Positions 24,096 to 42,454 of a stretch of 64,000 nt of DNA are shown one piece after another. The stretch is taken from NCBI RefSeq assembly GCF_001487165.1, contig NZ_LN913006.1:2050096-2114095 (forward strand), in the 5' to 3' direction. Numbering within the stretch: the first letter of the stretch is position 1; the number at the start of each line of letters is the position of its first letter. Position numbers and translations under genes: made by a program. Under the pieces are notes generated by a model, which saw nothing but the letters and a program-made list of their open reading frames with translations, was not told the origin of the DNA and did not search any database. Source of the stretch: Blautia massiliensis (ex Durand et al. 2017). Its GTDB lineage: Bacteria > Bacillota > Clostridia > Lachnospirales > Lachnospiraceae.

Positions 24096-24898
24096 CATCT
24101 GCCTCCATTTCCGGTGCCTGTACGTTTCAGGCGAAGTACCGAACTCATAAGTTCTTTTGTATAAGAATCTTTCGAGGCTGTCAGGATCTGAGCTGTTTTT
24201 CCGTATTCTTTCACTTCTCCGTTTTTCAGGACCAGAACCTGGTCTGCCATTTTTTCTACTACACCAATATTGTGTGTGACAACGATCATGGCAGTTCCAT
24301 ACTCCTGACGCATCAGCAACATTTCCTCAACTACCTGTTTCTGCACTGTTACATCCAAAGCGCTGGTAGGCTCATCTGCCAGAAGAAGCGACGGATTCTG
24401 CAGCATGGAAATACAGATTCCCACACGCTGATTCATGCCGCCGGACAATTCAAAGGGATAGCTTTGCAAAACACGTTCCCCATCCTTGAGGCCAATCTTA
24501 GCCATCATCCGGACGGCGCGCTCTGCGCACTCTTTACGGCTGATCCTTTCATGCTCCCGCATACTCTCATAAATCTGATCGCCCACGGTGCGGATGGGAC
24601 AAAGGGCTGCTCCTGAATCCTGAAAGACCATGGCGATCTCAGGACCCAGAAGTCTGCGTAATTCTTTTTCCGGCATATCCACCACATTTTTTCCTTTGTA
24701 CCAGATATCCCCTTCTGTCACCATACCTTCATTTCCCAGAAGTCCCATGATTGCCTTGATGATGGTACTTTTTCCGCTTCCGGATTCGCCTACCACCCCC
24801 AGGATCTCCCCTTTATTCAGTTCCAGATCCACATCATGTACAACCGGTTCTCCGTTGTAGCAGATCGTCACATGCTCAAGTTTCAACAATGATTCCAT
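24095..24898 (-). CDS. ABC importer ATPase, DppD/OppD type (system 1)
   Basis: This is the partner ATPase. Walker A is GESGSGKST, the signature LSGGMNQRVGICISML and Walker B SLLLADEPTSALD. It has 267 residues, shorter than many OppD proteins, and lacks the long C-terminal Cys-rich iron-sulfur tail. It lies 1 base after the binding-protein stop. Confidence 0.92.
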   Translation of the reverse strand: MESLLKLEHVTICYNGEPVVHDVDLELNKGEILGVVGESGSGKSTIIKAIMGLLGNEGMVTEGDIWYKGKNVVDMPEKELRRLLGPEIAMVFQDSGAALCPIRTVGDQIYESMREHERISRKECAERAVRMMAKIGLKDGERVLQSYPFELSGGMNQRVGICISMLQNPSLLLADEPTSALDVTVQKQVVEEMLLMRQEYGTAMIVVTHNIGVVEKMADQVLVLKNGEVKEYGKTAQILTASKDSYTKELMSSVLRLKRTGTGNGGR

Positions 24899-24899
24899 C

Positions 24900-26456
24900 T
24901 TATTTCACTTCCAGATCTGCCGTGATCTCGTAATAATCACATGGGTGAGCAGTCAGCCCTGATACATTTGACTTTGACACAAGTCCCATATTCAAATGAG
25001 AAACAAAGAAATACGCATCATCATCCAGAATGGTCTGCTGTGCTTCCACAGCAAGCTTGCCTCTCTCATCTGTATCAAAGGTCTCATGCAGCTTCGCTAC
25101 GATATCATCAAGATCCGAATTGCTGTATTTGCCATAATTTTTGGCAGCATCAGATACAACTGTACTTGTGAAGAAATATTCCGGATCACCGGTAGGTGCA
25201 GTTGTAAGCGAGCTTACATATACATCAAATTCTCCATTCTTTGCATACGTCGCATGGTCTGCTGTATTGTTGACATCGACCTCAATTCCGATGTCCTTTA
25301 AAGTGGACTGTGCATATTCTGCAAGCTTAGGCTGTTCCAGACGGGTTGGATAGGTCAGCCATGTGATGGACAGCTTCTTTCCGTCCTTATCTGCATAGCC
25401 ATCTCCATCCGTATCTGTCCATCCGGATTCTTCCAGAAGCTTTTTCGCCTCTTCCGGATCATAGGACGGTGCCTTTACTGCATCGTTTCCATAGGAAAAG
25501 CTGCTTGGGAAGGCTCCCACTGCCGGAACACCTCGTCCCTCCATGATCACACTGCAGAAACCATCCTTATCGATTCCCATCTCAATGGCTTTTCTCACAT
25601 TCTGATCCTGCATCAGTTCAGACTTCATATTAAACTGTCCGAAGAAGCATCGGCTTGTTGCTACAGAGCTGATCTGATAGTCCGGATTTCCGTCAAAAAG
25701 CGCATAGTTATCATACTGAAGTCCATAGGTTCCCTGTATATCGCCTGTCTGTAATGCTGCTGTCAGGGCACTTCCGTCTGAGAAGGATTTTACGATAACG
25801 TTGTCTACCTTTACATCTCCGCCCCAGTAATCCTCATTTTTTACCAGCTTGATCTCTGTTGGAGATACCTCTGTTGCAACATAAGGGCCTGTTCCTGCCA
25901 CATTTGCAGAGCCGCCCTCTCCCTGTACGCCATAATCCATATCAATGATGGCACCATACGGGTCACCGAGATAATTGATCAGTGCCGGACATGGTTCGGA
26001 AGTATGGATCGTTACTGTCATTCCATCTGCTTCGATCTTATCGATCTTCATATCGTAAGGTGCACGGTCATGGTTTGCGATCAGATCTTCCAGACATTCC
26101 TTTACCGCTTCTCCGTCCATGGTTCTTCCGCTGGAAAATTTCACACCGTCACGAAGGGTGATCTTTACTGTATTATCGTCTGTAAATTCATAGTCTGTAG
26201 CAAGCCATGGCTCTACCTCCATGTTGTCATTGTACTTAAACAATGTTTCTCCTACACCATAACGCAGACAGCTCCATCCGGAATAATTGTCGTGAGGGTT
26301 TAATCCTGCATCTCCCATTTCTTCACTGTATCCGGTAGTTCCGTAAACAAAGGTAGTTCCTTCACTCTTTTCTTTGCTTTTTGCTGCTGCCGGAACTCCC
26401 GTCATGCTCATGACCATTGACGCAGCAAGCACTGCTGCCAGAATCTTTTTCTTCAT
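24900..26456 (-). CDS. Family 5 extracellular solute-binding protein (system 1)
   Basis: This is a secreted SBP_bac_5 protein that would capture a peptide-like, nickel-chelate or metallophore-like ligand. The mature part begins FVYGTTGYSEEMGDAGLNP and has the family features LKDGVKF-like (ITLRDGVKFSSGR), NVAGTGPYV and KAIEMGIDKDGF. The signal peptide ends GVPAAAKS without a Cys, so there is no lipobox; this is unusual for a Gram-positive binding protein. I start at 26456 (KKKILAAVLA) behind GCGGAG. Ligand identity is not readable. Confidence 0.9.
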   Translation of the reverse strand: MKKKILAAVLAASMVMSMTGVPAAAKSKEKSEGTTFVYGTTGYSEEMGDAGLNPHDNYSGWSCLRYGVGETLFKYNDNMEVEPWLATDYEFTDDNTVKITLRDGVKFSSGRTMDGEAVKECLEDLIANHDRAPYDMKIDKIEADGMTVTIHTSEPCPALINYLGDPYGAIIDMDYGVQGEGGSANVAGTGPYVATEVSPTEIKLVKNEDYWGGDVKVDNVIVKSFSDGSALTAALQTGDIQGTYGLQYDNYALFDGNPDYQISSVATSRCFFGQFNMKSELMQDQNVRKAIEMGIDKDGFCSVIMEGRGVPAVGAFPSSFSYGNDAVKAPSYDPEEAKKLLEESGWTDTDGDGYADKDGKKLSITWLTYPTRLEQPKLAEYAQSTLKDIGIEVDVNNTADHATYAKNGEFDVYVSSLTTAPTGDPEYFFTSTVVSDAAKNYGKYSNSDLDDIVAKLHETFDTDERGKLAVEAQQTILDDDAYFFVSHLNMGLVSKSNVSGLTAHPCDYYEITADLEVK

Positions 26457-26502
26457 AATCTCCGCTCTCACTTTCTGTGTTATATTTATTTATAAGTGCC
26501 TG

Positions 26503-27372
26503 TTATCCTTTTCTCCTGTTTCGTTCCTTCGGATCCATATAATCCCGGATCGTATCTCCCAGAAGATTAAAGATCATTACCGTAATAAAAATCGCCATTC
26601 CCGGCGCAAGTACCATCCACGGTGAAATCTGCAGCATACTTCTTCCATCGTTGATCATACTTCCCCATTCTGCCATTGGAGGCTTTACACCAAGTCCGAG
26701 AAAGGAAAGTCCTGCCAGCTCCATCATCATGGTTCCGATATCAAGAACTGACGTAACAAGTATGGGGCCTGCAATATTTGGAAGGATATGTTTGAGCAGA
26801 AGCTTTCCTGTACTGCTCCCGGAAAGCTTTGCCGCCATAAGATATGCAGAGTCCTTCTGAGTCAGGGTAAGCCCTCTGGCAAGTCTTGCAAACTTCGGCC
26901 AGCTGATCACCGCCAGAGCAATAATGGCATTTTGGATACCGCCTCCCAGAACACCTGCTACTGCCAGGGCAAATACCAGTCCCGGAAAAGCCAGGAACAG
27001 ATCGGAGATACGCATCAGAACGGTATCGGCTTTGCCGCCCTTCCAGCCACAGAAAATACCAATAGCCGTTCCCACCACCGTGATCACCGCAACCAGGAGC
27101 AGTGTTGCATAAATACTGGTCGTACTTCCTATGATCACACGGGAAAGCATATCTCTTCCATAACGGTCTGTCCCGAGCAGATGCTCCGGTCCCGGCGGTT
27201 TCTGAGCAAGTGCCAGATCCTGGGCATAAGGATCATAAGGGCAGAGATATTTTGCAAATGCCGCTACAAACAGAAGCAATGCTGTAAGCACAAGAAAAAA
27301 GACAAGTTTTGCTTTTGTATGAGTTTTCCGGATCTTCTGTTTCCGGACTGTGATATTATTTTTTCCGCTCAT
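26503..27372 (-). CDS. ABC importer permease, DppC/OppC type (system 1)
   Basis: An N-terminal cytosolic segment and one membrane helix are followed by the permease core, with the EAA-type loop KLSGSSTGKLLLKHILPNIA and the usual LGTDRYGRDMLSRVI motif. The length is 289 residues. The start overlaps the stop of the other permease gene by 4 bases. Confidence 0.92.
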   Translation of the reverse strand: MSGKNNITVRKQKIRKTHTKAKLVFFLVLTALLLFVAAFAKYLCPYDPYAQDLALAQKPPGPEHLLGTDRYGRDMLSRVIIGSTTSIYATLLLVAVITVVGTAIGIFCGWKGGKADTVLMRISDLFLAFPGLVFALAVAGVLGGGIQNAIIALAVISWPKFARLARGLTLTQKDSAYLMAAKLSGSSTGKLLLKHILPNIAGPILVTSVLDIGTMMMELAGLSFLGLGVKPPMAEWGSMINDGRSMLQISPWMVLAPGMAIFITVMIFNLLGDTIRDYMDPKERNRRKG

Positions 27373-28313
27373 GCTCTGTCACCTCCAAGTCGTACTCTCG
27401 GATCCAGATAGTGGTAAATAATATCTGTCACCAGATTTACCAGAACATAAATAACCGCCATCCATGCCACATAAGCCTGGATGATCGGATAGTCACGCAT
27501 GGTGATCGCATCTACCGCCAGTTTTCCGACACCATCCCACATAAAGATATTTTCCACAATGGCAGTTCCTCCCAGAAGATTGCCGATGGACAGAGCCAGC
27601 AGTGTGATGATCGTCAGCATGGAAGCCTTCATTACACTCTTCCAGATGATCACACGACTGCGGATCCCTCTTGCCCGGGCTCCGGTCACATAATCCTTAT
27701 TCAGTTCTTCCAGAACCGTGGCACGCACCTGTCTGGTATATTTTGCAGCCATGGAGATCGCCAGTGTCAGTGTCGGCAGAATAATACTCTGTCCGAGATC
27801 TGTATTTGTGACTACCGGTAAAACGCCCAGCCTGATGGGCAGAAAATACATCAGGACCATGGCAGCAAAAAAATTCGGCATGGAATTGCCGATAAAGCTT
27901 AAAAATCTTATCAGATAATCTACCCATTTGTTGTGCTTTACTGCTGACAGGATTCCCAACGGGATCGCAAGAACAATCGTAAGAAGGATCGATGACAGAG
28001 TCAGCATCATCGTTGCCGGAAGCTTTGAAATAAAGGTTTCATAGACATCTCTGTGAGACACATAGCTCTCTCCCATATCTCCGGTTGCCATTCCCGCAAA
28101 CCAGGCAGCATATTGTACAAGGAATGGTTTATCAAGGCCATATTCTGCCTTTGCCTTATCAATGACCTCCTGGGATACTGCAGAGCCTGCATTTTCATAC
28201 ATATAAGTTACTGCATCTCCGCCGGCAAGCCGCATCATGGCAAAAGAAAGAAATGTGATCCCGATCAGGACCGGGATCAGCTGCAGCAACCGTTTTATTA
28301 TATATTTTCCCAT
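27369..28313 (-). CDS. ABC importer permease, DppB/OppB type (system 1)
   Basis: This is the first gene of system 1. The N-terminal KRLLQLIPVLIGITFLSF helix and the EAA loop ARGIRSRVIIWKSVMK are typical of OppB/NikB permeases. GGAGAGG lies before the ATG. The promoter is at 28358-28386 and carries the shared CCCC/GGGG element. Confidence 0.92.
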   Translation of the reverse strand: MGKYIIKRLLQLIPVLIGITFLSFAMMRLAGGDAVTYMYENAGSAVSQEVIDKAKAEYGLDKPFLVQYAAWFAGMATGDMGESYVSHRDVYETFISKLPATMMLTLSSILLTIVLAIPLGILSAVKHNKWVDYLIRFLSFIGNSMPNFFAAMVLMYFLPIRLGVLPVVTNTDLGQSIILPTLTLAISMAAKYTRQVRATVLEELNKDYVTGARARGIRSRVIIWKSVMKASMLTIITLLALSIGNLLGGTAIVENIFMWDGVGKLAVDAITMRDYPIIQAYVAWMAVIYVLVNLVTDIIYHYLDPRVRLGGDRA

Positions 28314-28445: not shown

Positions 28446-30410
28446 TTATATTCTCACACAGTGACATGCGGATAATTCTTTCCAGCCCTCTCCCAGAGAC
28501 TGTGGCTCTTCATACTCGATCAGCCTTCGTTTTCTCTCTTCCAGCGGATCCGGGATATGGATCGCAGAAAGCAGGGACTGTGTATAAGGATGCTGCGGAT
28601 TTTCAAAAAGCTCTTTTGTAGGTGCCATTTCTACCAGCTTTCCGTTTTTCATTACACCGGTTGTATCACTTAAAAAACGTACCATTGACAGATCATGGGC
28701 AATAAAAAGAAAAGAAAATCTTTTTTCCTGCTGAAGCTTTTTAAAAAGCATGACGATCTGTGCCTGGATAGAAATGTCCAACGATGCGATCGGTTCATCT
28801 GCAATGATAAGACGTGGTTCCATGAGAAGGCTTCTTCCTATGGCAACTCTCTGTCTCTGTCCGCCGGAAAGCTCTCCCGGCTTTTTCGACAGAATGCTTT
28901 CATCCAGTCCTGTCTCCTTCAGGATTTCCCGAAGCCTGTTCTCCAACATTTCTCTGTCACGGATCCTGCGGCTGATCTTTACAGGCTCCAGCATGATCTG
29001 CCGTATGCTCATTCGGGGATTCAGTGCAGCGCCCGAATCCTGAAAGATCATCTGGATCTCTGTCTGCATTTTCTTCCGCATTCCGAAAGGATCCTTTTTA
29101 TCCGGCACTCTTGCTCCCTGATAAAAGATCTCCCCACCTGTAGGCCGGTAGATTCCTGCAAGCGTTCTGGCTGTCGTGGATTTTCCGCAGCCGGTCTCTC
29201 CCACCAGTGCCATGATCTCACCTTCCCGGATACGGAAGGAAACATCATCCACTGCATGGATCGTATAATCGGAACGGATACGGAAATGCTGCTTCAGATT
29301 TCTGGCTTCGATCAGTACAGGCGCCTGTTTCTGTTCTGTTTTCTGTAAAAATGACGCTTCCTTTTTATCCGGTTTCTGTTTACGGCCGCTGTTTTCCTGT
29401 AATCTGTCCTTCAAAATGGCGGGCTTTTCTATTTTCGGAGCTCTTTCATCCAGAAGCCATGTGGCTGCATAATGCGTATCACTGACTTTAAACATCGGAG
29501 GAGTCTGTTCATAATCGATTGCCAGCGCCTGGGGATTTCGAACGGCAAATGCATCTCCCGGCGGAGGATTCAAAAGAGAGGGCGGCATTCCGGGGATCGG
29601 ATTCAGCTCCCCTTTTTCACCTGCAAATACAGGCAGTGAAGACAGAAGTCCCCAGGTATAAGGATGCCGGGGATCATAATAAACCTCTTCCGCTGTCCCG
29701 ATCTCAATGATCTTTCCTGCATACATAACTGCAACTCTGTCTGCGATCCTTGCAACAGCTCCCAGATCATGAGATATGAACACAATACTGATCCCTGTTT
29801 TTTCTCTCAGCTCAAGAAGCAGATCCAGAATCTTTGCTTCCACGGTTGCATCCAGTGCCGTAGTCGCCTCATCGGCAAATAATATTTCCGGATCACAGGC
29901 CAGTGCAATAGCCAGCACACAACGCTGACGCATTCCTCCGGAAAAAAAATGAGGCTGCAGTCCATAGCGCTGTTCTGCATCCGGAATCCCTACCAGCTTC
30001 AGCATTTCCACAGCTCTTTTTTTCGCCTCATCCCCGGATACTTTCTGATTTTTGATAATAGCCTCTGTGATCTGTTTGCCAACAGGGATCGTCGGATTCA
30101 GCGTCAGCATAGGATCCTGGAACACCATGCTTACCTTACTTCCGCACAGCTTTTCCATTTTTTTTCTTTTATAGGCTGTGATATTCTCTCCGCAGAGACT
30201 GATCTCTCCGCTTTTTACATGTGCATTCGGTGGCAGAAGCTTCATCACGCTACGGCACATAACGGTTTTTCCACATCCGGACTCACCTACGATACAAAGT
30301 ATCTCTCCTTTTTTTACCGTGAGATCAACATTCCGGACGGCCTGTACCTCGCCGTCCGGTGTGTCAAAGCTTACCGAATAGTTTTTTAATTCCAAAACGG
30401 TTTCCTGCAT
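28446..30410 (-). CDS. Fused double ABC ATPase (DppD-DppF) of importer system 2
   Basis: Two ATPase domains lie in one 654-residue chain. The first has Walker A GESGCGKT, signature FSGGMRQRCVLAIAL and Walker B EILFADEATTALD, then the oligopeptide C-terminal extension (NPIPGMPPSLLNPPPG). A charged linker of about 60 residues (KPDKKEASFLQKTEQK) follows. The second has Walker A GETGCGKST, signature LSGGQRQRVAIGRSL and Walker B LIIADEPIASLD. System 1 keeps these as two genes. I start at 30410 behind AAGGA. It is followed by 130 bases that contain the system 1 promoter and no clear terminator. Confidence 0.92.
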   Translation of the reverse strand: MQETVLELKNYSVSFDTPDGEVQAVRNVDLTVKKGEILCIVGESGCGKTVMCRSVMKLLPPNAHVKSGEISLCGENITAYKRKKMEKLCGSKVSMVFQDPMLTLNPTIPVGKQITEAIIKNQKVSGDEAKKRAVEMLKLVGIPDAEQRYGLQPHFFSGGMRQRCVLAIALACDPEILFADEATTALDATVEAKILDLLLELREKTGISIVFISHDLGAVARIADRVAVMYAGKIIEIGTAEEVYYDPRHPYTWGLLSSLPVFAGEKGELNPIPGMPPSLLNPPPGDAFAVRNPQALAIDYEQTPPMFKVSDTHYAATWLLDERAPKIEKPAILKDRLQENSGRKQKPDKKEASFLQKTEQKQAPVLIEARNLKQHFRIRSDYTIHAVDDVSFRIREGEIMALVGETGCGKSTTARTLAGIYRPTGGEIFYQGARVPDKKDPFGMRKKMQTEIQMIFQDSGAALNPRMSIRQIMLEPVKISRRIRDREMLENRLREILKETGLDESILSKKPGELSGGQRQRVAIGRSLLMEPRLIIADEPIASLDISIQAQIVMLFKKLQQEKRFSFLFIAHDLSMVRFLSDTTGVMKNGKLVEMAPTKELFENPQHPYTQSLLSAIHIPDPLEERKRRLIEYEEPQSLGEGWKELSACHCVRI

Positions 30411-30420
30411 GATCTTTTCC

Positions 30421-32007
30421 TTATTTTGTAATGGTCCAGTCTTCAATATTCCACATAACACCTACGGAATGATGTCCCAGAACACGTGTGGTATCCAGTC
30501 CGTCAAGTCCGGAAACGCCTACATAATCTCCCTGAAGATAAGCAACCAGAAGGATTCCAGGTGCCTTGGCATATGCCTTTTCGAATTCACTATATGCTTC
30601 TTTTCTGGCTTCCTCAGTCTCACCGTGACGGCCTTCCTCAAGATATTTATCCACATCTGCATTGGAATAATGCATGTTGTTTCCACTTGCGTCGGTTACA
30701 AAGTTTACATATGCCATATCCGGGTCAAACTGTGTTGCATAGCCGGCAAGAAATCCATTGTATCCTGCATCCCAATCAAATTTGGTAACAAGCTTTACTT
30801 CCATTTCCACACCAGCCTGCTTCAGCATATCAGACATGACATTGGCAATATCCACACGCTCTTCTTCGTAATCACGTACCTGGATGGTAAAGTGGAATTT
30901 CTGTCCGTTTCTCTCATAGATCCCATCATCACCTTTTTTCCATCCCAGCTCTTCCATCTTCTTTGCAAAGGTGTCCAGATCATAGGAGTAGATATTGGCT
31001 TCCTTATCTGTTCCGAGAGGGTTTCTCTGGATCGGGCTGTATGCCGCCTCTCCCTGTCCTGCAAGAACACCTGCAATAATGGACTCCTTATCCAGCGCAT
31101 AATTCAGAACGCCGATGGAATCTCCGTTTTCCTTCCAGAAATCTGTACTCATATCCATGGCAGCTCCACGGTAATCTGCTGTGGTAAACTCCCAGTAATT
31201 ATATCCGTCCTTATCCTTGAACTGAGAAGCATAGTTGGAATTCAGCCATGCAAGATCCGCCTCACCAGACTGGAGCATGGTTGCCTTTGTAGTCTCATCC
31301 GACACTGTACGGTATACAACGGTTTCAATATTCGGAACCTTTCCGTAATAATCTTCATTTCGTTTCAGTGTGATCATTCCGCCGGTAGCATCCCAGTCTT
31401 CAAATTTATAACGGCCTGTTCCCACCGGATTCTGGTTAAAGGATGTAGTATTTATGTCCTCCCCTTCCAGAAGATGCTCTGGAAGGATTCCCATGGTAAA
31501 GTAATCCAGCATGGCAGCATCATACTGATCCAGTGTAAAGATCACAGTCTGATCATCCGGTGCCTCAATACTTGTAATGTCCTGATAGTTGCTGGTGATG
31601 CTGGCTCCCAGGGTTTCATCCTCTGTAAGCTCCTTATAGGTGTATACAACATCCTCTGCATTGAAATCTTCTCCATCATGCCACTTAACACCATCTCGAA
31701 GTTTAAAAGTATAGGTATTGGTATCCTTGTCAAAGGTATAACTCTCTGCAAGATCCTCTACCGGCTTTCCATTGGCATCATATTTCATCAGTCCTGAAAA
31801 AATAAGATCCGGAAGTTCATCATGGTTATTCAGAAGGGGATTAATTGTACTTTCTGACTCACCTGCATATACCAGAGTTTTGTTTTCTTCTGCCGCAGCT
31901 ACGGTTACCGCACTGCCTGCAGCTGCTCCTGTACATGCTGCGGTCACTACTGCCAGTGTTATCGCCGCATATTTTCTGCCATAGTTGATTCCTGTTCTCT
32001 TTTTCAT
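30421..32007 (-). CDS. Family 5 extracellular solute-binding protein (system 2)
   Basis: This is an SBP_bac_5 protein of 528 residues with the family motifs YTFKLRDGVKWHDGEDF, NPVGTGRYKF and LNYALDKESI. The signal region contains VTAACTG, a poor lipobox, followed by a likely type I cleavage region ending in VAAAEEN, so anchoring is uncertain. I start at 32007 (KKRTGINYGRKYAA) behind GAGG. It differs clearly in sequence from the system 1 protein, so the two are not a recent duplication. Ligand unknown. Confidence 0.9.
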   Translation of the reverse strand: MKKRTGINYGRKYAAITLAVVTAACTGAAAGSAVTVAAAEENKTLVYAGESESTINPLLNNHDELPDLIFSGLMKYDANGKPVEDLAESYTFDKDTNTYTFKLRDGVKWHDGEDFNAEDVVYTYKELTEDETLGASITSNYQDITSIEAPDDQTVIFTLDQYDAAMLDYFTMGILPEHLLEGEDINTTSFNQNPVGTGRYKFEDWDATGGMITLKRNEDYYGKVPNIETVVYRTVSDETTKATMLQSGEADLAWLNSNYASQFKDKDGYNYWEFTTADYRGAAMDMSTDFWKENGDSIGVLNYALDKESIIAGVLAGQGEAAYSPIQRNPLGTDKEANIYSYDLDTFAKKMEELGWKKGDDGIYERNGQKFHFTIQVRDYEEERVDIANVMSDMLKQAGVEMEVKLVTKFDWDAGYNGFLAGYATQFDPDMAYVNFVTDASGNNMHYSNADVDKYLEEGRHGETEEARKEAYSEFEKAYAKAPGILLVAYLQGDYVGVSGLDGLDTTRVLGHHSVGVMWNIEDWTITK

Positions 32008-32098
32008 TCTGTTTTCCTCATCTTTCCTTATTTTCAAACCGGTTATCTACACTTCGGAATGCTTCATCACGGTTTGTATTCAAATATTTTTGACTGCA

Positions 32099-33016
32099 TC
32101 AGAGATTGCTGTAATGGTTATTTACCTCACTTCTCACAAAGCTTCCCATACTGGTAATGCACATTAAAGTAATGACCAGAAAAACTCCTGGGATCACGAT
32201 CACCCACCAGGTATTCATGATCAGTGCTTTATTTGCCAGTGAGAGCATACTTCCCCAGGAGACTACATTTGCCGGAAGCCCGAGGCCAAGAAAGCTTAAT
32301 GTAGATTCCATGGTAATACAGCTGCTTATCGAAGAGATCACCACAAACATGATCGCCGAAACAAAATTCGGGATCAGATGGTGATACATCACATATCCAA
32401 AACTTCCTCCGCAGAGTCTTGCATACATCACATAATCACTGTTCCTTATCTGCCGCACTTCACTTCTTACAATACGTGCCAGTGCAAACCACCCGGTAAT
32501 ACCGATGATCACAGATATGCTGATCATATCATTGGCCTGAAGGACCGCAGACAGGATCAGGATCAGCAGAAGGGTCGGAATACTTCCGCACATTTCCGTA
32601 AACCGCATCAGAACTGAATCCACCTTTGGACCTGCTGTTCCGCTGATGCATCCGTAGGTAACACCGATCACAGTAATGATCGCAGCTCCCAGAAGCCCGA
32701 TCACCAGAGAAACCCGTCCGCCATACCAGATCAGTGAATAAATATCTCTTCCAAGCGAATCCGTTCCAAAGATAAATTCCTTTCCCGGCGGTGTATTCAG
32801 ATTCTGGAGATAAAAACCTGAGGGATCATGATTTGCAACAACATTTGCAAATACACAGCCCAAAACGATCAGAAAAAGCAGGAACATGGAAAATACCGGT
32901 TTCCCCTTCAGCTTTTCCTGAAATGTTTTTTTTCGTTTTTCAGATTCATGCTGCTTCCACCCGGCACCAACTACCTGAAAAAGCTCAACTTCTGAAAGCT
33001 TCCGGTCAACTACCAT
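32099..33016 (-). CDS. ABC importer permease, DppC/OppC type (system 2)
   Basis: A 305-residue permease with LNTPPGKEFIFGTDSLGRDI near the N-terminus, EAA-type loop RLCGGSFGYVMYHHLIPN, and LSFLGLGLPANVVSWGSM near the end. The start overlaps the upstream permease stop by 7 bases. Confidence 0.92.
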   Translation of the reverse strand: MVVDRKLSEVELFQVVGAGWKQHESEKRKKTFQEKLKGKPVFSMFLLFLIVLGCVFANVVANHDPSGFYLQNLNTPPGKEFIFGTDSLGRDIYSLIWYGGRVSLVIGLLGAAIITVIGVTYGCISGTAGPKVDSVLMRFTEMCGSIPTLLLILILSAVLQANDMISISVIIGITGWFALARIVRSEVRQIRNSDYVMYARLCGGSFGYVMYHHLIPNFVSAIMFVVISSISSCITMESTLSFLGLGLPANVVSWGSMLSLANKALIMNTWWVIVIPGVFLVITLMCITSMGSFVRSEVNNHYSNL

Positions 33017-34002
33017 ACCCTCACCTCCGAATCCTTCATTCTTGGATCGATCTCTTCATTGACAGTCTGTGCAACAAAGCTGCTTAAAAATACGATAAAT
33101 CCCGTGATCAGCACATCGATCATCAGCAGATTATAATCATGATATTTTGCAGATTCCACTGCAAGGTTTCCAATTCCCGCATAATTGAAAACAGCTTCCA
33201 CAGTTACAGTCCCACCGGTTACATGGGGTACCGAAACTGCCATGATACTCACGATCGTCGGCATTACATTTCGAAGACAATGCTTCCACAGGATCTTTCT
33301 TTTGGAAAGTCCCTTGGATCTGGCAAGAAGTACATAATCCTTCCGCACCTCATCCAGAAATTTGTTACGTATCATATATGCGTAATACCAAAGATGGCTG
33401 AAGATCATTACTACCAGCGGAAGGATCATATGCTTCATACGATTGCCGATACTATCTGCCATTCCTACATCATAGGCACCGCTGCTTGGGAACCATCCAA
33501 GATTTACACTGAAGATCAGGATCAGTACCACACCAAGCCAGAAAGCCGGCACATAATAGGCTGCTGTTCCGATCTTGCAGATCAGCCGGTCGATCCACTG
33601 ATCCTCATGGAGCGTACAGAATATGGCAATCAGAACTGCCAGTATAAAGATCACAATATAAGCAATTCCTCCCAGCACCAAAGTATTTCCGATCAGCGGT
33701 TTGATCACATTCATAACCGGCTGCCTGTATTTCAGCGACAATCCGAAATCACCATGGACTACATTGGTAAACCACCTTACATACTGTACCCCGATCCCCT
33801 GATCCAGACCCAGTCTCGTTCTGGCCGCAGCCACTTCCTCGCTGGTCATCATTTCCAGGGAATCTCCGTAAAAGGACTGCAGGGGATCTCCCGGTGCCAG
33901 TCTCGCCAGCCAGAACACCACCACAGACAGAAGAAACATAACCACAGCAAGCAGAAGGATCCGCTTCAGGATCCGGATGACCAGTTTATTTTCTTTGTTC
34001 AT
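33010..34002 (-). CDS. ABC importer permease, DppB/OppB type (system 2)
   Basis: This is the first gene of system 2. It has the typical RILKRILLLAVVMFLLSVVV N-terminal helix, LARLAPGDPL, and EAA loop ARSKGLSKRKILWKHCLR. I start at the ATG at 34002 because AAAGGA lies just upstream. The frame is open for a further 99 bases, but that stretch is the conserved box and a hairpin of leader element B, so I treat it as leader rather than protein. Confidence 0.9.
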   Translation of the reverse strand: MNKENKLVIRILKRILLLAVVMFLLSVVVFWLARLAPGDPLQSFYGDSLEMMTSEEVAAARTRLGLDQGIGVQYVRWFTNVVHGDFGLSLKYRQPVMNVIKPLIGNTLVLGGIAYIVIFILAVLIAIFCTLHEDQWIDRLICKIGTAAYYVPAFWLGVVLILIFSVNLGWFPSSGAYDVGMADSIGNRMKHMILPLVVMIFSHLWYYAYMIRNKFLDEVRKDYVLLARSKGLSKRKILWKHCLRNVMPTIVSIMAVSVPHVTGGTVTVEAVFNYAGIGNLAVESAKYHDYNLLMIDVLITGFIVFLSSFVAQTVNEEIDPRMKDSEVRVW

Positions 34003-34038
34003 AATTTTCCTTTCCCACTGCCCTTTACAGTTCAGACA

Positions 34039-34147
34039 GACATTCGCATTCCGCTCTGCTGCATGCTCATGAACACAAATCGTGGAGCGATTTGTGTTCA
34101 TATTTCAAAAGCAGTTATGGCATCCAAAACCATAACTGCTTTTGAAA
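34039..34147 (-). promoter_or_regulatory. Structured leader element B upstream of importer system 2
   Basis: In 5'-3' order on the minus strand: an 18-bp perfect stem TTTCAAAAGCAGTTATGG with a 9-base loop (34103-34147), then a 12-bp perfect stem GAACACAAATCG (34071-34099), then a 36-base box (34039-34074) similar to the one before lrgA. Element A at 18981-19076 has the same order of parts with different stem sequences. It lies in the predicted 250-base leader of the system 2 operon. Confidence 0.55.
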
Positions 34148-34418: not shown

Positions 34419-35327
34419 TCACTTTCCGGAAATCTGAAGTCTTTCCTTCACGAATCCCAGAAAATCCTTTCCCTGTTCACTGAGCTCTTCACCTCTCCGG
34501 CAGATGCACCCGTAAACAAGTTTCTGGCCTTCTCCCGGAAATGTATATTTCACGGAGGAATATCCCGGATCACGGCCGGAAAGATCCGCACCACTGATAT
34601 TACACAACTCTCCGGACCCAAGAAGACGTTCCACGATATAATCACTGTTTGTTACGACTACAGTCTCTGCCTCCACTGCGGAATGACCGTTTTCCTCTAC
34701 AAGGTTCCGGTAATTATCCGGGGAAAATTCATCGGGAAATCTCTGGATCAGCCTGAGCTGGGACATATTAAAATCTCCCTCATCTGCTTTCCCTTTCCCG
34801 GTATAAATATTTACCTCGGTTTCCGTCAGCAGCTCAAATTCCAGGTAATTCCGGGAAAGAAAATACTGGAACGCCGCCAGCTGATTCTGCATCACATAGG
34901 CGAATCCCATATCATCCTGTCTGCCTTTCACACGTTTTATGATCTCATGGGTATCTGCTGCGTAAACCTGATAATGAAGATCATCGCACTTATGTGCTTC
35001 ATAATACGTTACGAAGATATCCGCAAACCAGGAGCTGGGATGAAAGCATACACACAGGCTGCTTTTTGCAAGTGGCTGTGCCTGCATTTCCAGTTCATCT
35101 ATATTTTCCAGGATCCTCTGCACATGGATATATGCACGCTCTCCTTCCAGTGTCAGCTCTATGCCCTTTGCATGACGGACAAACAGCTGGGTACGCATAT
35201 CGTCTTCCATGGAACGGATCACCTTGCTTACATTTGACTGCGTGGTAAAAAGCAGCTCTGCTGCCTGGCTGAAGGAGCCTGTTTTGGCACAGGCCGCAAA
35301 ATACTGTATCTGTTTTATATTCAGCAT
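34419..35327 (-). CDS. LysR-family regulator of the importer/methyltransferase locus
   Basis: The N-terminal winged helix is clear: FAACAKTGSFSQAAELLFTT then QSNVSKVIRSMEDDMRTQLF. The rest is a ligand-binding domain of the usual size (302 residues in all). I start at 35327 (MLNIKQIQYF); a longer frame would overlap the upstream gene by 20 bases. It lies 4 bases downstream of the fusion enzyme gene, so the two are co-transcribed. The position suggests that it senses the ligand or product handled by this locus and acts on the three promoters that share the CCCC/GGGG element. Confidence 0.92.
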   Translation of the reverse strand: MLNIKQIQYFAACAKTGSFSQAAELLFTTQSNVSKVIRSMEDDMRTQLFVRHAKGIELTLEGERAYIHVQRILENIDELEMQAQPLAKSSLCVCFHPSSWFADIFVTYYEAHKCDDLHYQVYAADTHEIIKRVKGRQDDMGFAYVMQNQLAAFQYFLSRNYLEFELLTETEVNIYTGKGKADEGDFNMSQLRLIQRFPDEFSPDNYRNLVEENGHSAVEAETVVVTNSDYIVERLLGSGELCNISGADLSGRDPGYSSVKYTFPGEGQKLVYGCICRRGEELSEQGKDFLGFVKERLQISGK

Positions 35328-35331
35328 GATC

Positions 35332-37773
35332 CTACCTCTGTTTCTTTGCAAAGATCAAAAACATCGGGGTCGGATTGTAAAACTCGTCTTTTTCTGTATA
35401 AATACGTTTGCTGATACCAAGGTCAAAGGAAAATTCTTCCACACCTATACGGCTCAGCGTTTCCAGATCCCATGCCGGACGCAGAAAAGAACTGATGGGC
35501 AGCTGCCGCTTGATATCCTCGCATTCCTGCATCAGCTCATCCTGGATCTGATGATGAGCATGATTCTCCGGAAGATCCGCAGTGTCCGCAAAGTCTGCTG
35601 CTCCGTAGTTTGCATCCAGATTTATCATCACTCCGCCCGGTTTCAGTACGCGGAACCATTCCTGATAAGCATGCTCCGCGTCCGGAAGTGTCCAGGTAAG
35701 GTTTCGTGATACGATCACATCAAATTCCTCATCCGGAAAATCCGGAGCTTCTGCATCCATCACCATAAACCGGCAGTCTGCTTTTTCTTCCTCCGCCAGC
35801 TCCTTTGCATGAGTGATCATATCCGGCGTCAGATCGATCCCGGTTACCTGATGGCCTTCCTTTGCAAGAAGAATGGTAAAAAATCCGGTTCCGCAGCCTA
35901 CATCCAGGATCCGGAGATTCTTTTTCTCAGGCAGATACTTCTTAAGCTCAGCCATCCAGCGGCCTGCAAGTGCACTGTGAAGCTCTGCTCTTCTCTGTTC
36001 CAGAAAGCTGTCGCTGCGCCTGGTCCAGTACTGGGCGATCCTTGTTTTCCGCTCGTCTTTTTCTCTTACGATATTTCCGTAGGTGATCACAGGGCCGCCT
36101 TCCACAACCTGAAGGCTTGATACCTGATAAAGGATCACACCATCCATGTCTGCACGACAGATTTCCTGTACATTTCCCTCATAATCACGGATCTCTCCAA
36201 GATACTCATCCTGATGAACGATATCGCCTGGTTTCTTCACCGGATACCAGAGACCGTTGACACTGGCGCACTGATAACGCACATCATCCATTTTCAGCGG
36301 ATAGTACGTACTGTGGGAACGGATTCCGTTATAGGCTCCGATGCTGCAGAGGATATTTCTTACATCTCTTCGCATGGAATCCACTTCCTCCCGTTCCCAG
36401 GTTCCCATACAGCCGCGTTCCAGAAGGACCGCCGGAATATGGAAGGTACTTGCCGCATAATTGTAGGCGCCGCCTGTACTCACATTTGACTGTACCATAT
36501 ATGGGACATCAACCTGCTCTGCCATTTTTCGGGAAGCTTCCACGATCTCCGGCTTTGCCACGCCTGCAAAATATACATACGGAGTCAGTTCCTCATAATC
36601 ATCACCGCCGTGAAGATCGATATAATAATCTGCCTTCCGGATCAGGGATTCTGTGATGGCCGCTGCCAGTCGTTCCATTTTTGTGCCATCTTTTCTGCCA
36701 GGGAAAACACGGTTCAGATTTTTTCCGTCTTCCCAGCTGATGCTGCCTGCACGCTTCTCAAAGTCTTCCCGGTTCAGCACCTTTACCAGAACCAGCTGAC
36801 CCTTTACCTTTTCCGGCTTCAGCCGCTTCGACAGCTCGATCAGAGTCTGGATCCCCACATACTCTCCTGCATGAAGACCTGCTGTGACGAGAACGGTTTT
36901 TCCAGGATCTTTTCCACGGATGATGGTTGCAGGAAGGACAAATTCTCCATCTCCGAGCTCAAGAAAGCCTTCTGTTTTTTCTCCTACCGCAACCGGAAGA
37001 TTCAGGAAATGATCCGGCTTTACACCAGTTACCATAAACATTGGTGTGGACTGATAATTTAATCTCTCCTCCTCACTCCAGACCGTTTTCCATATTTCTG
37101 TGTCTGTGCGGATTCCAAGAAGTCCTGCTTCTCGGAGAGTTTTTACATCCCACTGGGGACGATTGATCTTTGACAGCGGTACCTGGAGGGCGATCCGCTC
37201 CATGCGCTCAATATCCGTACAGAGATAGTGATCATCCAGGCTGTTGTTTTCCACATTTTTCCGGTCGTTTTCGTAGGCCTTACGCTGCTCTTCCTCATAA
37301 AGATAACCGTACCAGTTGGCATCAAAATTCAGAAGTCTTCCTCCTACCTTCAGTACACGGACCCACTCTCTATAAGCAACATCAGGATGCTCCAGATTCC
37401 AGGTAAGATTTCGGGAAATGACCACGTCAAAGGTATTATCCTCAAAATCCAACTTCTGTGCATCCATCCTCAAAAAGCGGATATTCCGGCAAAGGTCTCC
37501 TGCATTTTCCTTTGCCTTTTCCAGCATTCCTTCCGTATAATCCACTGCATCTACATGATATCCGGCTTCTGCCAGGATCACAGGAAAAAATCCGGGGCCT
37601 GTTCCGATATCCAGGATACGGATCTCTTCCTTGGGTTTGTCCGGAAACTGACTGGTCAGCACCTTAAGCCATGCGTTTTTCTGCGTTCCTGCAAGCTCTT
37701 TATGATTCACTTCGGAGTACCCTTCTGTACGGGTGCTCCAGTAAGATTCGATTTCATCGAGAAGTTTTTCCAC
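35332..37773 (-). CDS. Methyltransferase / AstE-AspA deacylase / methyltransferase fusion
   Basis: An 813-residue, three-domain cytosolic enzyme. Residues 1-245 are a class I SAM methyltransferase (motif I RILDIGTGPGFF, then DVVISRNLTWNLEHPD). Residues about 255-570 are an AstE/AspA (M14-like) zinc deacylase, with GLHAGEYVG (HxxE) and YYIDLHGGDD as metal sites and LLERGCMG late. Residues about 575-813 are a second methyltransferase (RILDVGCGTGFF, DVIVSRNLTWTLPDAE) clearly related to the first. Family enzymes cleave N-acyl amino acids; the methyltransferases would then alkylate the same or a related molecule. It is the first gene of a unit with the LysR regulator. The substrate is unknown. Confidence 0.88.
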   Translation of the reverse strand: MEKLLDEIESYWSTRTEGYSEVNHKELAGTQKNAWLKVLTSQFPDKPKEEIRILDIGTGPGFFPVILAEAGYHVDAVDYTEGMLEKAKENAGDLCRNIRFLRMDAQKLDFEDNTFDVVISRNLTWNLEHPDVAYREWVRVLKVGGRLLNFDANWYGYLYEEEQRKAYENDRKNVENNSLDDHYLCTDIERMERIALQVPLSKINRPQWDVKTLREAGLLGIRTDTEIWKTVWSEEERLNYQSTPMFMVTGVKPDHFLNLPVAVGEKTEGFLELGDGEFVLPATIIRGKDPGKTVLVTAGLHAGEYVGIQTLIELSKRLKPEKVKGQLVLVKVLNREDFEKRAGSISWEDGKNLNRVFPGRKDGTKMERLAAAITESLIRKADYYIDLHGGDDYEELTPYVYFAGVAKPEIVEASRKMAEQVDVPYMVQSNVSTGGAYNYAASTFHIPAVLLERGCMGTWEREEVDSMRRDVRNILCSIGAYNGIRSHSTYYPLKMDDVRYQCASVNGLWYPVKKPGDIVHQDEYLGEIRDYEGNVQEICRADMDGVILYQVSSLQVVEGGPVITYGNIVREKDERKTRIAQYWTRRSDSFLEQRRAELHSALAGRWMAELKKYLPEKKNLRILDVGCGTGFFTILLAKEGHQVTGIDLTPDMITHAKELAEEEKADCRFMVMDAEAPDFPDEEFDVIVSRNLTWTLPDAEHAYQEWFRVLKPGGVMINLDANYGAADFADTADLPENHAHHQIQDELMQECEDIKRQLPISSFLRPAWDLETLSRIGVEEFSFDLGISKRIYTEKDEFYNPTPMFLIFAKKQR

Positions 37774-37801
37774 GTTGATTCCTCCGCACTTTTCTATTCA
37801 C

Positions 37802-37824
37802 GTGAGGGAGATCAGGTCCCTCAC
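37802..37824 (-). promoter_or_regulatory. Hairpin in the leader of the fusion enzyme gene
   Basis: GTGAGGGA and TCCCTCAC form a perfect 8-bp stem with a 7-base loop, just downstream of the predicted start of transcription and about 30 bases before the ATG. It may be a leader structure or an operator; nothing decides between them. Confidence 0.5.
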
Positions 37825-37835
37825 AGGTCACGTTT

Positions 37836-37879
37836 AATGTACCAAATTGTCAGGGTATTAACAAGCCCCTGGGGGGGAT
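37836..37879 (-). promoter_or_regulatory. Promoter of the fusion enzyme / LysR unit with shared element (site 3)
   Basis: On the minus strand -35 TTGTTA (37859-37864) and -10 TACATT (37836-37841) are separated by 17 bases. The element ATCCCC-N4-GGGGC-TTGT (37861-37879) is the same 19-base length as sites 1 and 2 and likewise runs into the -35 box. TGGAAT occurs upstream at 37904-37909. Confidence 0.55.
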
Positions 37880-39387: not shown

Positions 39388-41199
39388 CTATGCACGGAAT
39401 TTCTTCTGCATCTCCCGCACCATATCTTTCCTCTTAAACAGGAACAGCCATACCAGCATCAGAAAGCTGACGCATATACAGATCAGCGACGGATACAGCA
39501 CCGTTACCACACCGGCAGCCAGCAGGATCACAGGGATCACTCCTCCGAAAGCTCCTGCTTCCAGAAGATAGATCATATATTCCGCCACCTCCAGCTTCTG
39601 TACCGCAGTGATCACCCACATGGAGCAGATCACAGCAAGCGAAGCCAGAGGAAGCAGATAATCCACAGACCAGCCACGCCAACCGGTAAACACATCCCAA
39701 AGCACTCCTGCAACAGCTGCGATCACCAGCTGCCACATCTCATTCTTCAGAAGATTCCGCCGCTTCACATAAGCCACTGAAACCATCAGCCAGGTGCAGA
39801 ACGCCCCTGCAGTCACAAACCAGGCCCAGCCTATATGACTATCCAGCAGATAATCGATCAGATTACATACCACAGCCAGCACAATACACAGAAATGTAAA
39901 GCTCTCAAAAAGCTTCATCTGCTGTTTCTGCTCCTCTTTTTGTCCCGGAAGATCATTCTCCCGAATTTTACAGGATACCTGCTCATTTTTCAGTCTCTCC
40001 ACAAAATTCCGCTCAATATTTCCATTGGGGATCTTGGACGTAAAGCTTAAAACCATCTCATCTCCAAAAGAACAGGAACACAGCTGCAGACTGTCCGTGC
40101 TTGCAAAAAGTCCGAATCTCTGAATATATTTCCGATATTCCTCCGGCATCCGGATGATCCCCACATTGGAATAGATCGCCGTGATAGACCTCCCTCCGAG
40201 AGTTGTCCCGGCAAGAAGGAACGGGGTTTTGATCTCCAGTGGTACCAGACGCAGGATCGGATTTTTCTCCAGGCTTACCAAATCATTCAGCTTTGCTTCG
40301 ATCACGTCCTTACTCAGTTCCTTTGCAAACTGCTCCTTTACGGAGCTCAGAATATCCTCAAAGGCTGTATCAGGCTGAAAATAACAGCTGATCTCGATCC
40401 ATCCGAAAAAATTTGCCATAGACCGGGACGGAAAATAATTTCTCAAATTTACCGGGATCATCAGACCAATGGGCTTTTTCGCCTGATTCTGAGGTACTTC
40501 TTCATGGATCGCCCAGATAAGTGCTGCCGTAAGGAAAACCGTGATCGATACACCGGCCGCTTTTGCACGGGCGTGGATCTCTTTTACCGGAACACAGACT
40601 TCCGTGATATTCATATCCTCCTGCCTGAGCTTCTCGCCTTTTAACTGGAAAGCAGGCTTCTTGGACTCTCTCTTTCTTGGCGCATCGGAGGAATAATACT
40701 GGGAAAAGCTGTCCTCCTCCATATCCCTGCCCGTAATGTTTTCATCCGAAAAAAGCTCCGGAAGCTCTGCGGATGGGTGCGTCTCCTGAAGATAATTTTT
40801 CACCAGCTCCATCAGAAAATGCATGGCTCCCGTTCCATCCGTCAGCGCATGAAATACCTCGAAATTAATCCTGTTCTTATAATAGCTCACCCGAAAAAGA
40901 AGCGTTTTTTTGTCCGGAATATAAAGTCCGCTGCAGGGTGCACCTGCTTCTTTCTTTACCACTGCCGGAATATCACGTCTCTCCAGATAAAACCAGAACA
41001 GTCCCTTTCTTAAAACTGCACGGAAAAGAGGATATTTTTCCAGTGTCCTCTCCAGGGCTTCCTGCAGGTTTTCTTCTTTTATCTCTTCTTTAAGTTCACA
41101 GTAAAAACGAAATACCCTGGTGTCATTCTTTCCTGTCACCGCCGGGAACGCCAGCGCCGCATTGTCAAGTTTTCTCCACTGTGCATATTCGTTCTTCAT
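39388..41199 (-). CDS. Condensation-fold acyltransferase fused to a membrane domain
   Basis: Residues 1-420 have the fold and motif of the BAHD/condensation/alcohol-acetyltransferase superfamily: NFEVFHALTDGTGAMHF contains HxxxD, and FFGWIEISCYFQPD lies later. Residues about 435-603 form a hydrophobic domain with five or six helices and no catalytic motif that I recognise, possibly DUF6320. Such a protein may transfer an acyl group at the membrane. Its start lies 35 bases inside the upstream hydrolase gene (AAGGAAAG before the ATG), so the two are coupled. Product and substrates are unknown. Confidence 0.75.
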   Translation of the reverse strand: MKNEYAQWRKLDNAALAFPAVTGKNDTRVFRFYCELKEEIKEENLQEALERTLEKYPLFRAVLRKGLFWFYLERRDIPAVVKKEAGAPCSGLYIPDKKTLLFRVSYYKNRINFEVFHALTDGTGAMHFLMELVKNYLQETHPSAELPELFSDENITGRDMEEDSFSQYYSSDAPRKRESKKPAFQLKGEKLRQEDMNITEVCVPVKEIHARAKAAGVSITVFLTAALIWAIHEEVPQNQAKKPIGLMIPVNLRNYFPSRSMANFFGWIEISCYFQPDTAFEDILSSVKEQFAKELSKDVIEAKLNDLVSLEKNPILRLVPLEIKTPFLLAGTTLGGRSITAIYSNVGIIRMPEEYRKYIQRFGLFASTDSLQLCSCSFGDEMVLSFTSKIPNGNIERNFVERLKNEQVSCKIRENDLPGQKEEQKQQMKLFESFTFLCIVLAVVCNLIDYLLDSHIGWAWFVTAGAFCTWLMVSVAYVKRRNLLKNEMWQLVIAAVAGVLWDVFTGWRGWSVDYLLPLASLAVICSMWVITAVQKLEVAEYMIYLLEAGAFGGVIPVILLAAGVVTVLYPSLICICVSFLMLVWLFLFKRKDMVREMQKKFRA

Positions 41200-42454
41200 G
41201 ATGCTTTCCTTCTTCCTGTTCCTCTGTTTCCAGAAAACGATTTACATATGCAAAGCTCTCCTGCACATGCAGAAATTTGATCCCCAGTGCAAAATACCCG
41301 TGAAACGCACCTGCGATCCTGTGCACTTCCACACGATTTCCCGCTTCCTTCAGTTTTTCACCAAATGCCTCACCTTCATCCCGAAGAGGATCGAACTCAG
41401 CGGTAAGTATCAGTGTATCCGGCATATTTCGAAAATTCTTCTCCAGGATCGGCGCAAAATAGGGATTCCTCCTGTCTTCCGGACAACTCTCATAGAATTT
41501 CAGATAATCTTCCATCTTCTCCGCTGTGAGAAGATAACCGGTTCCATTTGTTTTTACGGATTCAAAAGGAGAGTCTTCCGTATAACAGTTGTTCAGTGCC
41601 GGATAAATAAGGATCTGTTTTTTGGGAAAAAAATCTCCGCGGTCTCTGGCCATCATACATACAGCCGCTGCCAGATTTCCGCCTGCACTATCTCCCATAA
41701 TGGTGATACGATCCGGATCCGTATTCAGAAGAAAACGATTGGTGTAAAAAGTCTTCGCAGCTGCATAACAATCCATCAGTCCCACCGGGAAACGGTATTC
41801 CGGTGCCAGCCTGTATTCAACAGACGCCACGATCTGACCGGTAGACTGTGCCATTCTGGCACAAACCCGCTGATAATTCTCTACACTTTCCGTAACCCAG
41901 CCACCGCCATGGAAAAACAGGATCACCGGTGGTTTTTTTCCGGAGGCGGCACCGTTTTCCATGTCCTCTTCTGTTGGAAAAAACAGACGGATCGGCACTT
42001 TATAGTCTCCGTTATAAACTTCCGCATCCAGTGTCCTGTAAAAGATCCTCATAGGATCCATCTTCTTAAGATCTGCCAGCTTTCTGGAAGCCTCCACTTC
42101 GATCCCGCCATAGGAAAGAGCATGGAGCACTGTCCGCACGGCACGTGGCATAGCCGCTTCTCTCCCGGTCGGAATGCCCGGAACTATGACTGGGCGGCTT
42201 CTTCTGTTTTCTTTTCTTGTATAGATATATTTTGTTTCTGTTTCGTATCTTCCAGGAATGCAGACTTGTTTCACGCAGGTACGCCTGTAGGCAATCCTCT
42301 TCAGGATCTCATGATCTGTACGGATGATCACTTCCGTTCCCTTATAGCCCCGGATATAATATCTGTTTTCTTTCTTTTTTATACGTGGTTGTCTCAATCG
42401 CAGTAAATATTTTTTGATTACTTTTTCCTCCGTGGATTTTTCCTTTATTTTCAC
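41165..42454 (-). CDS. Alpha/beta hydrolase, hormone-sensitive-lipase type
   Basis: The HSL oxyanion motif is FFHGGGWVTES, the nucleophile elbow MGDSAGGNLAAAV, the acid TAEFDPLRDEG and the His GAFHGYFALG. An N-terminal extension of about 130 basic residues precedes the catalytic domain and has no signal peptide. At 429 residues it is longer than a simple esterase (about 310). It is co-translated with the acyltransferase downstream, so one enzyme may make and the other hydrolyse the same kind of ester. Confidence 0.87.
   Translation of the reverse strand: MKIKEKSTEEKVIKKYLLRLRQPRIKKKENRYYIRGYKGTEVIIRTDHEILKRIAYRRTCVKQVCIPGRYETETKYIYTRKENRRSRPVIVPGIPTGREAAMPRAVRTVLHALSYGGIEVEASRKLADLKKMDPMRIFYRTLDAEVYNGDYKVPIRLFFPTEEDMENGAASGKKPPVILFFHGGGWVTESVENYQRVCARMAQSTGQIVASVEYRLAPEYRFPVGLMDCYAAAKTFYTNRFLLNTDPDRITIMGDSAGGNLAAAVCMMARDRGDFFPKKQILIYPALNNCYTEDSPFESVKTNGTGYLLTAEKMEDYLKFYESCPEDRRNPYFAPILEKNFRNMPDTLILTAEFDPLRDEGEAFGEKLKEAGNRVEVHRIAGAFHGYFALGIKFLHVQESFAYVNRFLETEEQEEGKHHEERICTVEKT

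Follow-up and report, generated by a model that had tools for sequence, protein, structure and literature searches.

What a single chain with two methyltransferases and a deacylase does, and on which molecule, is the question raised by the gene at 35332..37773 (minus strand) of the window, the whole stretch of 64,000 nucleotides from the genus Blautia that was analysed here and from whose first letter all positions are counted. The reading frame runs intact from 37773 to 35332 and encodes 813 amino acids. Profile searches confirmed the domain order that had been read from the letters alone: an N-terminal SAM methyltransferase domain of the N-type clade (residues 1-250; 37024..37773), an AstE/AspA zinc deacylase domain (residues 257-570; 36064..37005), and a C-terminal SAM methyltransferase domain of the C-type clade (residues 575-813; 35335..36051), all on the minus strand. 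The class I SAM methyltransferase profile PF08241 scored 173.7 bits in two stretches (cut-off 21.2), and the AstE/AspA catalytic domain PF24827 scored 81.2 bits at residues 290-475 (cut-off 25). The three-domain chain belongs to no named family, as no NCBIfam model scored above its cut-off on the deacylase or on either methyltransferase, in keeping with the earlier remark that no characterised enzyme of this order was known. One cluster of homologues comprised 12,026 member sequences.

In the deacylase, H301xxE304, NLNR 352-355, H388, and E452 were invariant across 26 aligned sequences. Of these, H301, E304, H388, and E452 aligned with the H-x-x-E, D-x-H, and Glu of DoeB, and we take the first three to be the zinc ligands and the last to be the catalytic glutamate of the AstE/AspA deacylase. 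Residues of the D-x-G-x-G-x-G SAM motif were conserved at 0.98-1.0 in the N and C clades. The two methyltransferase domains share a signature composed of an N-terminal YW-x2-R, RN-x-T-W, D-A, and RP-x-WD, in line with their proposed relationship to each other; conservation of the arginine, asparagine, and tryptophan of RN-x-T-W is 1.00 across 91 N-type rows and likewise across 66 C-type rows. A dN/dS of 0.03-0.14 per domain in all seven pairs compared corresponds to purifying selection on all three domains; with the catalytic motifs intact, nothing in the sequence suggests a dead domain. Two proteins from metagenomes (P0055 and P0005), whose domain sequences are odd or mixed and which are probably assembly chimeras, were excluded from the modelling alignment. 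Regarding structure, the closest folds of the methyltransferase domains included phosphoethanolamine N-methyltransferase (PMT), CouO/NovO, and UbiG, which do not indicate a substrate, while the deacylase was closest to the N-acetyl-diaminobutyrate deacetylase DoeB and also matched CphZ, beta-Asp-Arg dipeptide hydrolase. The fused protein begins directly with its methyltransferase domain and has no visible leader peptide, so that it probably works in the cytoplasm, after import.

Upstream of the gene (37774..37874, minus strand), two blocks recur in conserved form in Blautia luti and B. schinkii, and the ribosome-binding site CGGAGGAATCAAC falls in the second of them. About 50 bases at 37825-37874, starting with CCCCAGGGGCTTGTTAA, are near-identical in both species and constitute a likely candidate promoter or operator; in the same comparison, the adjoining stretch differs by an insertion. 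On the other side, the enzyme gene is directly followed by a gene for a LysR-type regulator (34419..35351, minus strand; start codon uncertain).

The origin of this architecture was reconstructed from 80 named loci, which are the top 80 among the 354 relatives that two N-methyltransferase patterns retrieved. The full fusion is present in 24 of them, at 56-96% identity over the best segment, while 16 carry the deacylase fused to the C-type methyltransferase (A-Mc) with an N-type methyltransferase gene (Mn) in the same locus, one has a methyltransferase pair without a deacylase, and 39 have separate genes. Thus, a gene split at the domain borders in relatives, which the sequence-only reading had regarded as a possible sign of an artefact, does occur as Mn plus A-Mc, but given the number and divergence of the fused loci it looks like a natural variant. 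In the deacylase tree, a branch with 100/100 support divides all 41 fused rows (25 full fusions including that of the window, and 16 A-Mc proteins) from the 10 deacylases encoded on their own. This is compatible with a single origin of A-Mc; the deacylase and the C-type methyltransferase were apparently fused once. The N-type methyltransferase unit underwent at least six gains or losses on the same tree. The N and C labels of separate genes were given by the best BLAST match to the domains of the window, and the trees were built later from the sequences. In the methyltransferase tree, the fused N-type domains group with separate N-type genes and the C-type domains with C-type genes, the N clade having an SH-aLRT support of 83 in the larger tree and 99/94 in a careful tree of 53 rows. 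Constraining both fused methyltransferase domains to join cost 512 log units (p-AU 4.4e-38), and the internal duplication around an inserted deacylase that had been suggested earlier was consequently rejected. The two methyltransferases are, to judge from these trees, older paralogues, each of which is also encoded on its own elsewhere, and their grouping with separate genes of their own type argues that neighbouring genes were fused. Other arrangements of the units were observed as well: A-Mc is followed by Mn in L076:9932-12647 and L077:1829-4401, Mn and Mc are fused directly, without a deacylase, in L083:9983-11530, and in each of L198, L199, and L157 a single protein combines two methyltransferase domains of the family but lacks the deacylase.

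Behind the enzyme gene and the LysR gene, two complete Opp/Nik-type ABC importers extend from 34101 to 23337, with all genes on the minus strand. The first is composed of permease B (33010..34101), permease C (32099..33016), the substrate-binding protein SBP_1 (30421..32037), and one chain with two ATPase domains (28446..30461). The second consists of permease B (27369..28313), permease C (26503..27372; assigned by similarity to reference permeases), the substrate-binding protein SBP_2 (24900..26471), and two ATPases (24095..24898 and 23337..24098). The search found five SBP_bac_5 proteins in this genome. Four are encoded in clusters that also contain these enzymes, which amounts to three separate enzyme-importer systems. 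In addition to the fused enzyme with its two importers, a lone deacylase stands ahead of a third Opp/Nik-type importer (L009), and two separate methyltransferases are situated at the end of the operon of a fourth (L010). The fifth SBP_bac_5 protein (L160) has none of these enzymes in its neighbourhood. The occurrence of a lone deacylase or of methyltransferases with an importer of their own suggests that the units act as a tool kit, with different ligands calling for different members.

The same association extends well beyond this genome. A complete importer (permease B, permease C, and substrate-binding protein) was present in 59 of the 80 named loci and in 24 of 40 loci of a class-wide sample, compared with 1 of 40 controls, with p values of 4e-15 and 7e-9 that overstate independence because the loci share ancestry. 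Homologues encoded by separate, adjacent genes were indeed seen next to ABC importers, an arrangement that the sequence-only reading had proposed to survey. For the class-wide draw, 391 genomes were searched with at most two candidates scored per genome, and the 36 that matched are a lower bound; of the places listed outside the window's own genome, all were taken except for those of the weakest three genomes (G116, G170, and G216). The 40 controls were hand-chosen regions of the same genomes (30 from the class sample and 10 from the genus) that held none of the enzymes. Among the 24 fused loci, the next labelled genes were LysR and then permease B in 11, and a permease B or a substrate-binding protein in seven (gaps of 2-1513 bp); LysR lay at most 45 bp behind the enzyme gene in 11. 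In three further fused loci, the next labelled genes encode an ATPase/CbiQ/CbiM-type Ni/Co ECF transporter, on the same strand and 157 bp off in L042, and on the opposite strand in L057 and L059, while in L070 the contig edge was reached after LysR alone. No permease B, permease C, or substrate-binding protein was found within 6 kb in 17 of the 80 named loci, nor an importer in the stretch in 16 of the 40 class-sample loci, some of which are cut by contig ends. The remaining two of the 24 fused loci have neither an importer nor such an ECF transporter: around the fused gene of Blautia wexlerae (L043, 9965-12505), the stretch lacks both importers and recognised metal genes, and that of a Clostridia metagenome-assembled genome (L046, 10001-12442) has no importer in 14 kb; the latter locus carries a CbiZ corrinoid gene (753-1856) 8 kb from the fused gene. 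In both L043 and L046, the fused gene is followed by a gene for a Cell Wall Hydrolase (PF07486).

Regarding the nature of the cargo, the best solved relatives of SBP_2 are 3t66, SaNikA (4ofj), and NikA, and its three best NCBIfam models, all below their cut-offs, are Opp5A_nikA (the best, at 348.4 bits against 600), NikA, and CntA. Against the NikA equivalog TIGR02294 (cut-off 393), SBP_1 scored 140.6 bits and SBP_2 196.1 bits, both too low for assignment. The closest solved chains of SBP_1 are 8efz and 4oet, presumably the nickel proteins CcNikZ-II and CjNikZ, respectively, and a C-terminal LGHH motif is common to all three. No histidine of SBP_2 aligned with that of the VPSHAD motif of E. 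coli NikA, which we take to be the nickel ligand H416. One report, in which C. jejuni NikZ is named, describes the ability to bind Ni(II)-(L-His)2 as a seemingly shared property of these proteins (PMC5140060). Permease B of the second importer passed the cut-off of the Opp2B "nickel ABC transporter permease" model (363.5 bits against 350) and that of the first did not (251.2 bits), while the two-domain ATPase scored 404.9 and 379.7 bits with NikD/NikE, nominally above the cut-offs, each score being the sum of two stretches.

At least one gene for CbiM, a metal P-type ATPase, CsoR, ArsR, FecCD, or Peripla_BP_2 was found in 21 of the 80 named loci compared with 2 of 40 controls, an excess that is biased upwards, as these references were chosen after recurring near the enzymes in named and genus loci. 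The class sample is the sole fresh test of this link because the references were picked from loci that include the named set; here one or more of the six types occurred in nine of the 40 loci, compared with two of the 40 controls (p 0.024). Taken singly, the excess of the metal families was mostly not significant, and the loci are not independent. CbiM adjoins these genes in three genomes of the genus (G016, G012, and G023). Searches of the loci for a NiCo riboswitch were negative. The link with importers is strong and wide, and that with metal genes is weaker. We regard a metal complex as the likely cargo of the enzyme-linked importers.

Several further loci carry metal or transport genes beside members of these enzyme families. 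Separate deacylases lie near heavy-metal P-type ATPase genes in L140, L145, L146, L148, and L170 (the ATPase being identified as such in L148 and L170 and by clustering in the other three), and an ArsR-like regulator is present in L140, L145, L146, and L148. Methyltransferases of the family stand beside siderophore-type FecCD and Peripla_BP_2 importers in L187 and L189, the latter with an additional pair of exporter-fold ABC proteins. In L194-L197, a remote N-type methyltransferase (33-36%) is located among double ATPases, an ABC pair, and a MATE pump; in L195, the double ATPases are CbiO/ECF-like and the ABC pair is of the exporter fold.

The explanation that we tentatively prefer, one that we hold to be quite possible, is that the fused enzyme is a cytoplasmic processor of an organic ligand imported together with nickel, cobalt, or zinc. 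Opp/Nik-type importers would take up the ligand together with a transition metal (Ni, Co, or Zn). The deacylase in the centre of the chain would then cleave an N-acyl linkage in the ligand, either an amide or an isopeptide; zinc hydrolases of its family, with DoeB and CphZ among the fold matches, cut such bonds. The donor atoms exposed by this step (N, S, or O) would next be methylated by the two methyltransferase domains, which might each act on a different atom or work in succession, so that two atoms are capped or a single atom is methylated twice. In this manner the chelate would be broken up and its metal set free, and the altered ligand would no longer rebind it. The metal cargo, the action of the enzyme on this cargo, the bonds and atoms that are changed, and the direction of dismantling are what we infer. 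To our knowledge, metal release by deacylating and methylating a ligand is known from no siderophore or nickelophore system. The sequence-only reading had supposed that one small molecule is deacylated and alkylated, perhaps twice; the importer context offers a candidate substrate class for it, namely the ligand of a metal complex.

A precedent for methylating the donor atoms of a chelator may be found in the bis-thiomethyltransferase GtmA/TmtA, which is among the fold matches. One report describes SAM-dependent double methylation of a zinc-chelating dithiol, GtmA bis-thiomethylating the zinc chelator dithiol gliotoxin (PMC10500201). Unlike our bacterial fused protein, GtmA is a fungal enzyme acting on gliotoxin. 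We know of no importer or deacylase partner of GtmA. Other known systems resemble the locus in part. The deacylase scored 102.5 bits against the 402.7 required by the equivalog of DoeB/EutE, the N2-acetyl-L-2,4-diaminobutanoate deacetylase (TIGR02994; PDB 6twm), a separate enzyme of ectoine catabolism without methyltransferase domains, the solved chains of which have 330-337 residues. Phosphoethanolamine N-methyltransferases (Arabidopsis PMT, 5wp5; nematode PMT-2, 4krh/4ine) likewise combine two class I SAM domains in one chain, a likeness that possibly extends to successive methylations. However, they have no deacylase between the domains, the fused enzyme does not classify as a two-domain PMT, and the similarity is that of the general methyltransferase fold. 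The neighbouring importers are of the same type as NikABCDE/NikZ, with one permease (27369..28313) above the Opp2B cut-off and substrate-binding proteins that are closest to nickel-binding chains yet both below the NikA cut-off; we know of no Nik operon with these enzymes. In the Cnt/staphylopine system, a metal-ligand importer of the same superfamily stands beside SAM-using enzymes, the cnt enzymes being a nicotianamine-synthase-like aminobutyrate transferase and an opine dehydrogenase. In contrast to Cnt systems, no opine dehydrogenase (PF10100) above cut-off was found in any of the 61 related genomes, including that of the window.

Three other explanations were weighed against import and dismantling of a metal ligand. 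The enzyme may make or finish a small secreted metallophore, deacylating a precursor and then methylating it, with a MATE pump as the exporter and the Nik-type importer retrieving the loaded form. Genes for metallophore synthesis and uptake often cluster, as in the cnt systems. A MATE gene lies on the same strand within 200 bp of the enzyme, the importer, or another ABC ATPase in 6 of the 80 named and 9 of the 40 class-sample loci (15 of 120), and anywhere in the locus in 18 of 80 and 10 of 40, respectively, against 3 of 40 controls (p 0.033 each). However, MATE exporters, the only exporters in this count, are absent from 62 of the named and 30 of the class-sample loci, and the lack of a staphylopine-type opine dehydrogenase among the 61 genomes also argues against this route. 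Genes for a PapA/AATase-like acyltransferase with a DUF6320 tail (39388..41199, minus strand) and an esterase (41165..42454, minus strand), located 1.6-4.7 kb upstream of the enzyme on the same strand, would suit biosynthesis, and the pair recurs in L040, L041, and L156. Nevertheless, two opposite-strand genes separate the pair from the enzyme, and with four loci it falls outside the widely recurring neighbours. On balance, we consider biosynthesis unlikely.

Alternatively, the cargo may contain no metal and consist of N-acylated peptides or amines that the enzyme breaks down or detoxifies by deacylating and then methylating them, either to inactivate them or to dispose of methyl groups. Members of the SBP_bac_5/Opp superfamily bind mainly peptides, and also opines and sugars, the deacylase resembles DoeB and CphZ in fold, and metal genes are less strongly associated with the enzymes than importers are. 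Such a cargo would leave unexplained that the solved relatives bear nickel names, that NikA-type models rank first for SBP_2, and that CbiM/CbiQ, heavy-metal ATPases, CsoR, and siderophore-type permeases adjoin the same genes. The neighbours linked to amino acids that were noticed, judged largely by eye among 22 neighbour clusters, were DAP dehydrogenase in five loci, RidA-like proteins in four, and NlpA/MetQ-type lipoproteins in four. This explanation appears rather unlikely to us. The lipoprotein genes lie within 5 kb of the enzymes in L085, L086, L088, and L091, and their products could feed methionine for SAM. Finally, the three domains may run separate reactions, fused merely for co-expression and without a shared substrate, as might be concluded from the deacylase and methyltransferases that occur apart with their own importers in L009 and L010. 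We hold this to be very unlikely, since the A-Mc fusion is retained in all 41 rows of one clade while the N unit joined or left repeatedly, all three domains are conserved together, and L076, L077, and L083 combine these units in different arrangements.

The domains of the fused enzyme are known singly, their combination has no named family, and the Nik-type importer context is the main new point; no description linking this enzyme set to Nik-type importers was found among the literature matches listed. If the link with metals fails, the protein is still a widespread enzyme of gut bacteria without a named family, and its natural fused and split forms are usable for ordering its steps. The native nickelophore of NikABCDE systems is an acknowledged gap, as stated in one report (PMC11091072), and the enzyme set gives a biochemical way into it, by finding which ligand of the importers is changed. 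A bolder and somewhat improbable proposal is that gut and environmental Clostridia possess a hitherto unrecognised class of metal-ligand uptake systems, in which the fused enzyme and its relatives encoded by separate genes carry out the intracellular processing. If this is true, the substrate of the enzyme would be the missing native nickelophore, or a cobalt or zinc ligand, of Nik-type importers.
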